Below, in pieces: positions 44,790 through 47,402 of a DNA stretch of 64,000 bases. The notes beneath the pieces are model-generated. The model was given only the letters and a program-made list of their open reading frames with translations. It ran no database searches and was not told the DNA's origin. The stretch spans positions 124,001 to 188,000 of the forward strand of contig JACZYG010000001.1 of NCBI GenBank assembly GCA_022571215.1. The letters run 5' to 3'. Position numbers and translations under genes: made by a program. Source of the stretch: Fidelibacterota bacterium. GTDB lineage: Bacteria > Fidelibacterota > SORT01. Numbering within the stretch: the stretch's first letter is position 1; every line of letters starts with the position of its first letter.

Positions 44790-44968
44790 TCCATGGCAGT
44801 CAGAGCTTCCCGAAACCTAATCGAATTCATCTTGAATATGAGTCGGAAAATTTGTAGTCTATAGACATCTTACACAGCTAAATATACTTAGATTTGGAGA
44901 AACCGATTTAATCATTTTTACTACTTTTGTCTATATTCGGTTGTAATGACAATTCGGAGGATAAAACA

Positions 44969-45430
44969 ATGAGCCTTTCAATTTCAAGCGCCGCCTTTAC
45001 CGAGGGAGAAAGAATCCCGGAGCAATACACCTGCGAGGGTGAGGACATCTCCCCGCCGCTCAGCTGGAGCGACCCGCCCGAAGGAACAAAAAGTTTCGCC
45101 CTCATCTGCGACGACCCCGACGCGCCTATGGGTACGTGGGACCATTGGCTGATTTATAACATCCCGGCGGACTCCGGAGGATTATCCGAAGCGGTTCCGA
45201 CCGACGAGTCATTAGCCGACGGCTCGAAGCATGGACTTAACTCGTGGGAGAAAACACACTACGGCGGACCGTGCCCGCCACCCGGAGACCCGCATCGTTA
45301 CTTCTTCAAGCTCTACGCACTCGACACTATGTTGACGCTCACGGGCGATGTAAACAAGAACTCGCTCGAAAACGCCATGCAGAGTCATATTCTCGCCGAA
45401 GCGCAGCTCATGGGGACTTTTTCGAGGTAG
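44969..45430 (+). CDS. PEBP family (YbhB/YbcL, Raf kinase inhibitor-like) protein
   Basis: CEGEDISPPLSWSDPPEGTKSFALICDDPDAPMGTWDHWLIYNIPA and GPCPPPGDPHRYFFKLYALD. GGAGG RBS precedes the ATG at 44969 (ORF track starts at TTG 44927). Confidence 0.95.
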   Translation: MSLSISSAAFTEGERIPEQYTCEGEDISPPLSWSDPPEGTKSFALICDDPDAPMGTWDHWLIYNIPADSGGLSEAVPTDESLADGSKHGLNSWEKTHYGGPCPPPGDPHRYFFKLYALDTMLTLTGDVNKNSLENAMQSHILAEAQLMGTFSR

Positions 45431-45479
45431 CTCACTAGACGAATGTATTCGCTGGTCGGGACAAACATATGAATTGCAC

Positions 45480-46247
45480 TTATTTCTGAGTGAATCTCCA
45501 TTCGTGTTCTGAATCAAACTCAATTGGTCCATAAAGTGTTTCGTGTGAATTTCCGTCCATATATGGTTTGATAGATTTTTTGTATATCTTTATGAAAGAT
45601 CTAACGTAATCTAAACTCATTTCAAATTTACACTCTATATCTTCATAAGTATACATAGATTGAACTTTTTTCGATTTACTCGTTGTTGAAAATGTAGTAG
45701 ATATATTTTTTGTATTTTCTAAGTCTCCTGACGGATATAAATAATATTGAGAATGCGAAAACGCATTTCTCAAATTACTATCGAAAAATTTATTGTATAG
45801 ACTTTCTATATCAATATTTATTTCATGACCAATATCTTGAAGGCATTTAATTTTCTGAGAGGGATATATAGCTTCTGTTTCTTCATTTTTTTTATTTAGA
45901 TATTTTACATATGGAGAATATTCCTTTTTTCTGATGGTATTTATCATGTTGTAGAGGATCAAATATATCAAATCCACCTCAATTATGTGCGTATAAATCA
46001 AAAGATACATCCGTGCTTTGGTAGTTTTATTTATATTTTCGGATTCTTTCACATCAATTAAATCGCTAATTAATTCTAAAACCTCTCGAAATTCATCATC
46101 TAAATAATATGTAAGAATATTATGATTCCATTTATTATGGAAAGCAAAACAATTAGTCAGAAATTTCTTTTCATCTGTATTCTTAGCCCTATTAAATATT
46201 TCAGCAAAAGTTTCTTCACAAATTTCTTCAAACGTGGATGACTTCAT
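45480..46247 (-). CDS. hypothetical AT-rich gene; candidate HEPN-domain protein
   Basis: Helical protein with LRNAFSHSQY (R160-x4-H165; codons 45768-45770 and 45753-45755), matching the HEPN Rx4-6H motif with a polar residue after R. Strongly AT-rich compared with both neighbours. Confidence 0.6.
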   Translation of the reverse strand: MKSSTFEEICEETFAEIFNRAKNTDEKKFLTNCFAFHNKWNHNILTYYLDDEFREVLELISDLIDVKESENINKTTKARMYLLIYTHIIEVDLIYLILYNMINTIRKKEYSPYVKYLNKKNEETEAIYPSQKIKCLQDIGHEINIDIESLYNKFFDSNLRNAFSHSQYYLYPSGDLENTKNISTTFSTTSKSKKVQSMYTYEDIECKFEMSLDYVRSFIKIYKKSIKPYMDGNSHETLYGPIEFDSEHEWRFTQK

Positions 46248-46250
46248 TCT

Positions 46251-47402
46251 CTAAAACCCGCCTTTTTTAAGCGTCTCGCGGGCGATGACTATACGTTGTA
46301 TCTCGCTGGTACCTTCGAATATCTTATTGATACGGGCATCACGGTACATCCGTTCTATCTTCAGCTCGCGTGAATAGCCCATTCCGCCGTGTATCTGAAC
46401 CGCATGGTCTACTATTCTGTCAAGCGCTTCCGAGCAATATAGCTTAACTATCGAGGCTTCTCTTGTAACTCTTTTCCCCGCGTCATAGTCCGCCGCAGTC
46501 CGGTAAAGCATACTTTCCATAGCGTATATATCGGTTGTCATGTCTGCGAGTTTCCACTGAATAGCCTGAAATTCTCCTATAGGTTGACCGAATTGCTCAC
46601 GTTGTTTCGCGTATTCAGTACTCAGTCGCAGCGCTTCTTTGGCTTGTCCGAGCGTAGTAGCGCCTAATCCGAGCCTGCCGACATCGAGAATACTGAGCGC
46701 GATCTTGAAACCCTGACCCGGTTCGCCCAACAGATTTTCCTTCGGGATATGAAAATCGTGGAAACTTATAGCCGCTGTTTCCGAACCCCTAATCCCCATC
46801 TTCTCTTCCTTTTTGTCTACCTTAAATCCTTCCTTCCTCGTTTCTATAACAAATGCGCCCGGTCCCAAATCCTCACCGTCTTTTTCCATTTTGGCATAAA
46901 CGACTATGACGTCGGCAATCGACCCGTTGGTCACCCACATCTTCGTACCGTTCAAAACCCAATCGTTTCCGTCGAAAACCGCCTTTGCCTTCATAGCTGC
47001 CGCGTCCGAACCCGAACCCGCTTCCGTAAGAGAATAAGCCGCAATAAATTCGCCTGTCGCGAGACTTGGCAGATATTTTTTCTTAGTCTCTTCGGAGCCG
47101 AACAGAATAATAGTCTGCGCGCCGATGGACAAATGCGCGCCGAGAAAAGTAGCCGTAGAAGCGCACCCTTGAGCAATCTCTTCCTGCATGGCACAATAAC
47201 CGAGTTCCCCGAATCCGCCTCCCCCATATTCCGGGGGAATGAGAACGCTCATTAATCCGGTCTCGCTTAATTTCTTTATCAACTCCTTCGGAATCTTCTC
47301 TTCGCGGTCGATTTGATCAGCTAAGGGACGAATTTCTTTGTCGGTGAATTTCTTAGCCATGTCTCGAAGCATCTCTATCTCTTCGGATAATTTAAAGTCC
47401 AT
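46251..47402 (-). CDS. acyl-CoA dehydrogenase
   Basis: AAYSLTEAGSGSDAAAMKAKAV, WVLNGTKMWVTNG, VQIHGGMGYSRELKIERMYRDARINKIFEGTSEIQRIVIARE. Confidence 0.97.
   Translation of the reverse strand: MDFKLSEEIEMLRDMAKKFTDKEIRPLADQIDREEKIPKELIKKLSETGLMSVLIPPEYGGGGFGELGYCAMQEEIAQGCASTATFLGAHLSIGAQTIILFGSEETKKKYLPSLATGEFIAAYSLTEAGSGSDAAAMKAKAVFDGNDWVLNGTKMWVTNGSIADVIVVYAKMEKDGEDLGPGAFVIETRKEGFKVDKKEEKMGIRGSETAAISFHDFHIPKENLLGEPGQGFKIALSILDVGRLGLGATTLGQAKEALRLSTEYAKQREQFGQPIGEFQAIQWKLADMTTDIYAMESMLYRTAADYDAGKRVTREASIVKLYCSEALDRIVDHAVQIHGGMGYSRELKIERMYRDARINKIFEGTSEIQRIVIARETLKKGGF

Follow-up and report, generated by a model that had tools for sequence, protein, structure and literature searches.

A recently inserted, AT-rich gene of a Fidelibacterota bacterium encodes a candidate HEPN-type ribonuclease with relatives in restriction-modification operons, prophages and plasmids

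We analysed a 64,000-nucleotide stretch of contig JACZYG010000001.1 from a Fidelibacterota bacterium (positions 124,001 to 188,000, hereafter the window), in which the gene P0001 lies between an acyl-CoA dehydrogenase gene and a PEBP-family gene (Table 1). An earlier inspection without database searches (the sequence-only reading) had reported a 255-aa frame carrying the peptide LRNAFSHSQY at this place. Both are exact, the peptide being residues 159-168 of the product, and the strand, which that reading left unstated, is minus. The start codon of P0001 lies 3 nt past the stop codon of the dehydrogenase gene, in the same direction, and no promoter-like site beyond chance was found for P0001. 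It is probably read through from the dehydrogenase gene. No sensor or regulator gene is visible alongside P0001 in its neighbourhood.

Table 1. Features of the P0001 locus, in positions of the window.
Feature	Position	Strand	Evidence
P0001, candidate HEPN-like RNase gene, 255 aa	45480..46247	-	single open frame with ATG start; 13 homologous loci
R160-N161-x3-H165 motif, predicted catalytic	45753..45770	-	invariant in 13 aligned sequences
E90, acidic residue conserved where the predicted second core helix ends	45978..45980	-	invariant; model helix 74-89
R79...Y85 conserved helix, family signature R-x2-L-x2-Y-x4-E	45993..46013	-	invariant columns
Inserted stretch replacing the 45-150 bp PEBP/acyl-CoA dehydrogenase gap of two same-genus genomes	45431..46250	.	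synteny and sequence comparison with G001/G002
Acyl-CoA dehydrogenase gene, upstream, co-directional; host backbone, outside the system	46251..47402	-	84-96% identical orthologues in G001-G004
PEBP-family gene, downstream, convergent; host backbone	44927..45430	+	83-87% identical in G001/G002

P0001 is far more AT-rich than its flanks, as had been noticed earlier. Its GC content is 0.273, against 0.55 in the PEBP ORF, 0.485 in the dehydrogenase gene and 0.436±0.033 (minimum 0.374) in 64 other long non-overlapping ORFs of the window, which served as the composition reference in place of genome-wide codon statistics. Its GC3 is 0.234, against 0.439±0.052 (minimum 0.303) in the same ORFs. The dehydrogenase locus is orthologous in two same-genus genomes (G001 and G002) and two same-family genomes (G003 and G004), and P0001 is absent from all four. 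The two same-genus genomes have the dehydrogenase gene next to the PEBP gene, about 150 bp apart in G001 and about 45 bp in G002, and no gene lies between them. In G004 the dehydrogenase gene is followed by a lipoprotein gene, and in G003 a different insert occupies the site behind it. Insertions seem to recur at the 3' end of the dehydrogenase gene. Because the composition of P0001 is aberrant and its site is empty in relatives, P0001 is a recent insertion, as the sequence-only reading had proposed; a single inserted gene of foreign composition is the straightforward reading of the site. P0001 lies within a 355-kb contig with conserved flanks and is therefore not a contaminating fragment. Terminal repeats, a terminator, an integrase and a known RNA family were all searched for at the insert and not found. 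As for the insert in G003 (L055 7540-8764), it carries a Y1/RAYT-like transposase ORF and a small MNT-like nucleotidyltransferase ORF (domain names assigned by eye), and it repeats part of the 3' end of the dehydrogenase gene, IRRLVIARETLQKGGC.

Of about 245 genomes in the phylum sample, sequence search and profile search each found P0001 in 1 only. Weak matches elsewhere in the phylum were noise, as they contained internal stops or reached only E values near 0.01, and a profile match in G165 (E=0.007) was rejected since the frame reads as an unrelated protein. The gene had been called an orphan. This holds in the phylum sample but not in general, as 13 homologues (12 distinct) were found in rhizobial plasmids, Proteobacteria, two candidate-phylum bacteria, a Microcystis phage and other viral contigs. 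Searches with tblastn matched two Agrobacterium plasmids (E about 1e-9) and two phage-collection records, and later Rhizobium sullae. Pattern searches added a homologue in the IMG/VR contig L014, homologues in six genomes (Uhrbacteria, Doudnabacteria, Bradyrhizobium, Pseudomonas edaphica, Stutzerimonas and Eoetvoesiella) and later one in the prophage contig L066. One viral record may be bacterial DNA rather than phage: the homologue at 135-1241 of the 4.4-kb "Bacteriophage sp." scaffold MT839340.1 (L012) is 94% identical to that of Pseudomonas edaphica and lies near an apparent IS3-type transposase.

The homologues are 16-23% identical to P0001 over aligned columns and the family ranges from 255 to 488 aa in length, with variable C-terminal regions. 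Nevertheless, W40, R79, L82, Y85, E90, P112, R160, N161 and H165 are invariant in 13 of 13 aligned rows. Conservation of R160 and H165 was a check proposed by the sequence-only reading; both residues passed it, and N161 with them. The pattern R[NDH]x3-5H is present in 8% of shuffles of P0001, and the motif alone is weak evidence; R-N-x3-H is significant because it is fully conserved in homologues of such low identity. Scans of P0001 against Pfam, NCBIfam, PADLOC and PHROGs gave nothing above noise; a PDB sequence search gave no match, and the family is named in none of these libraries. No Pfam or PADLOC model recognises the family members scanned, and none of these has an ATPase domain. A PDB profile-search match to a repeat protein was spurious.

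AlphaFold2 modelled P0001 with a pLDDT of 68.5 and a pTM of 0.71, and the 268-aa Bradyrhizobium homologue (m30c1609f8980) with a pLDDT of 83 and a pTM of 0.82. The Bradyrhizobium model has helices at 53-70, 76-91, 93-106, 134-147, 151-160 and 163-170. R166-x4-H171 closes the last of these, H171 lying just after it, and is followed by a beta-hairpin and a long helix (196-223). In the P0001 model the motif is placed in the same way, at a helix end ahead of a hairpin and a last helix, and the core is all-helical. HEPN RNases carry Rx4-6H with a polar residue (N, D or H) after R, a pattern that R160-N161-x3-H165 matches, and the motif stands at the end of helix 3 or the start of the loop before helix 4, as it does in both models. 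The acidic residue of HEPN helix 2, often in the form Ex3[KR], may have a counterpart in E90, which lacks K or R at +4. Thus, the predicted helical layout is compatible with HEPN topology.

Database comparisons returned no HEPN match. Foldseek searches of the PDB with both models gave best E values of 0.74 and 0.19, none below 0.1 and none to HEPN proteins; Foldseek matches to viral models were noise. The Pfam HEPN families (HEPN, DUF4145, ApeA, pEK499_p136, RiboL-PSP and others) did not match P0001 up to E=10, and the Pfam HEPN models did not match eight family members up to E=1. Alignment by hhalign with RiboL-PSP HEPN, an LRNKAAHG protein, Tha and ApeA gave probabilities of about 0.1-1.5%, and known HEPN controls also missed each other. 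These hhalign blanks are not evidence against HEPN, because the control HEPN families did not detect one another. From the invariant residues and the models, the family likely belongs to the HEPN superfamily. The HEPN assignment of the sequence-only reading therefore stands as regards the invariant motif, the helical core and the motif at a helix end, and is no more than likely as regards the fold, for which neither Foldseek nor Pfam gave a HEPN match. None of the three outcomes by which that reading was to be judged wrong (a non-HEPN fold, unconserved R160/H165 or vertical inheritance) arose.

The genomic contexts of the relatives revealed a link to restriction-modification (R-M). In the Uhrbacteria and Doudnabacteria contigs (L016 and L017), a 488-aa homologue lies in line between hsdS and hsdR of a type I operon, in the order hsdM-hsdS-[homologue]-hsdR with gaps of about 8-12 nt. 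The R-M genes were confirmed by Pfam (HsdM_N/N6_Mtase, Methylase_S and HSDR_N). A Fic gene precedes the operon in L016 and an AbiEii gene precedes it in L017. Between L016 5126-12538 and L017 4912-12359, identity across the two phyla is 73-77% for HsdM, the homologue and HsdR and 33% for HsdS. Therefore, the operon, homologue included, apparently moved as a unit, the sequences indicating an inter-phylum transfer with a change of specificity.

Other relatives reside on phages and plasmids. In the L066 prophage the homologue is on the opposite strand, between the integrase side and a minor-tail gene, and in the Microcystis phage (L013) it lies opposite to the tail genes and adjoins a Dam gene. 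In an Agrobacterium pusense plasmid (L011) KAP-NTPase and TIR genes come after it; in a rhizobial plasmid (L010) MNT-HEPN, HipA and integrase genes are near it; and in Stutzerimonas (L020) a TrwC relaxase precedes it and an AbiJ_NTD4 gene comes next. Thus, the defence association proposed earlier was upheld by the neighbourhoods, with relatives in R-M operons, prophages and plasmids. A constant partner gene beside the homologues was not found among the loci read. Two rhizobial plasmids have a nucleotidyltransferase-plus-HEPN gene not far from the homologue, at L010 3294-4208 (annotated) and at L015 6826-7827 (read from the sequence). Uncharacterised genes adjoin homologues in two rhizobial loci, L018 8585-9376 (without a Pfam match) and L014 1-909; these could be partners or chance neighbours.

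The family resembles several known systems. PrrC is the anticodon nuclease of the E. coli prr/hsd locus. Its R-M partner holds this RNase silent until a phage peptide that blocks restriction sets it free (PMC3710099, PMC2610378). Like PrrC, the family has a HEPN-type active site, here a predicted one, and its L016 and L017 members likewise lie inside a type I hsd operon (PMC3710099, PMC2610378). Unlike PrrC, which has an N-terminal ABC-ATPase and a link to type Ic R-M, the P0001 family is without the ATPase: none of the members scanned has the ABC/SMC-like domain that PrrC and RloC carry fused N-terminally to HEPN. P0001 further differs from PrrC and RloC in lying outside any hsd operon, in a genome in which no type I HsdR was found, placement in hsd operons being seen only in its L016 and L017 relatives. 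Tha is a solitary HEPN RNase encoded by S. aureus prophages and triggered by tail proteins (PMC11087260). It shares with the family a single gene of about 300 aa, an R-N-x3-H motif (RNSIMH) and carriage by prophages, and it is a stand-alone defence RNase (PMC11087260), as solitary members of the family are proposed to be, but Tha has a C-terminal HEPN domain and a separate inhibitor, Ith. An hhalign comparison of the P0001 family with Tha-1 gave a probability of 0.2-0.3%, the test being insensitive at such depth, and tblastn matches of Tha and of the P0001 family in the phage collection do not overlap. ApeA (HEPN_Apea, PF18739) is also an R-N-x3-H HEPN defence protein and is sometimes found in R-M operons (PMC3710099); the top, non-significant hhalign alignment to it sets RNYLTH against RNAFSH. 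However, ApeA has another N-terminal domain and P0001 has no ApeA Pfam match. R-M-linked HEPN genes form at least 16 clades (Anantharaman et al. 2013, PMC3710099). They have in common with the P0001 family R-x4-6H with a polar residue after R, the R-M linkage and perhaps the acidic residue of helix 2, but none of the listed families matches it by Pfam, and it differs from them in carrying a beta-hairpin that separates the motif from the last helix, and variable C-terminal extensions that bring the total length to as much as 488 aa.

We consider it likely, from the sequences and predicted structures, that P0001 is a solitary, horizontally acquired, metal-independent endoribonuclease of HEPN type that acts as an anti-phage (abortive-infection) effector. 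This role is suggested because the motif is conserved and relatives occur in type I R-M operons, prophages and plasmids. In the mechanism that we propose, dimerisation would place two R-N-x3-H motifs along one cleft, where H165 and R160, aided by N161 and E90, would cut host and/or phage RNA and leave 2',3'-cyclic phosphate ends. The RNase would be off until infection is sensed. In the R-M-linked relatives, the neighbouring HsdMSR complex might sense infection, as for PrrC, and solitary copies such as P0001 might be triggered directly by the phage, as for Tha. P0001 would have to act alone, because its host lacks type I HsdR and coupling to R-M cannot hold. The outcome would be growth arrest that halts phage spread.

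P0001 might instead be the HEPN-type toxin of a toxin-antitoxin (TA) or addiction module whose antitoxin was lost, is encoded elsewhere or is an RNA, as in AbiF-type systems, and would then be selfish rather than defensive. We regard this as unlikely. TA systems often have HEPN toxins (PMC3710099), relatives are on plasmids, and MNT-HEPN genes lie near homologues in L010 and L015; however, the homologues have no constant partner, no Rfam match lies near P0001 and there is no space upstream of it for an RNA gene, and the position in R-M operons points to defence. It is still less likely that the protein is a non-RNase accessory factor of prophages or plasmids (antirestriction, superinfection exclusion or an RNA-binding regulator) whose R-N-x3-H binds nucleic acid. 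Such a factor would fit the phage copy beside the Dam gene, and an antirestriction or modifier protein could also occupy R-M operons. In line with this, Foldseek gave no HEPN match. Nevertheless, the catalytic R, N and H and the glutamate are invariant amid near-total divergence, whereas non-catalytic HEPN domains usually lose the motif (PMC3710099). That the motif arose by chance in some unrelated all-helical protein of other function (metabolic or DNA-related) is very improbable: its frequency among shuffles and the blank fold and profile searches would allow this, but it is fully invariant over 13 deeply diverged proteins, is placed at a helix end in the structural models and belongs to relatives whose contexts are defence or mobile, not metabolic.

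Returning to P0001 as an anti-phage RNase, we tentatively suggest a wider scheme, which we think possible though doubtful, in which the family consists of guard RNases without sensors of their own. HsdMSR would hold the HEPN protein off and free the RNase when a phage disables restriction, and copies that escaped to prophages, plasmids and the P0001 locus would now stand alone through exchange of the C-terminal region.

HEPN RNases are well known and R-M-linked HEPN genes occur in many clades; thus, the P0001 family adds a new member to a well-known kind of defence RNase, not a new principle. No description of the family was found in the open-licence literature searched, and it is probably an undescribed HEPN-like family. 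A guess from a motif has now become a conserved, mobile and defence-linked family. If our reading is true, defence systems gain a family that goes undetected by the libraries now in use (PADLOC, Pfam and NCBIfam), and the same RNase would occur in two forms: inserted into type I R-M operons in the manner of PrrC, and on its own as a single gene. This would offer a testable pair, an RNase restrained by restriction enzymes in one setting and working alone in another.
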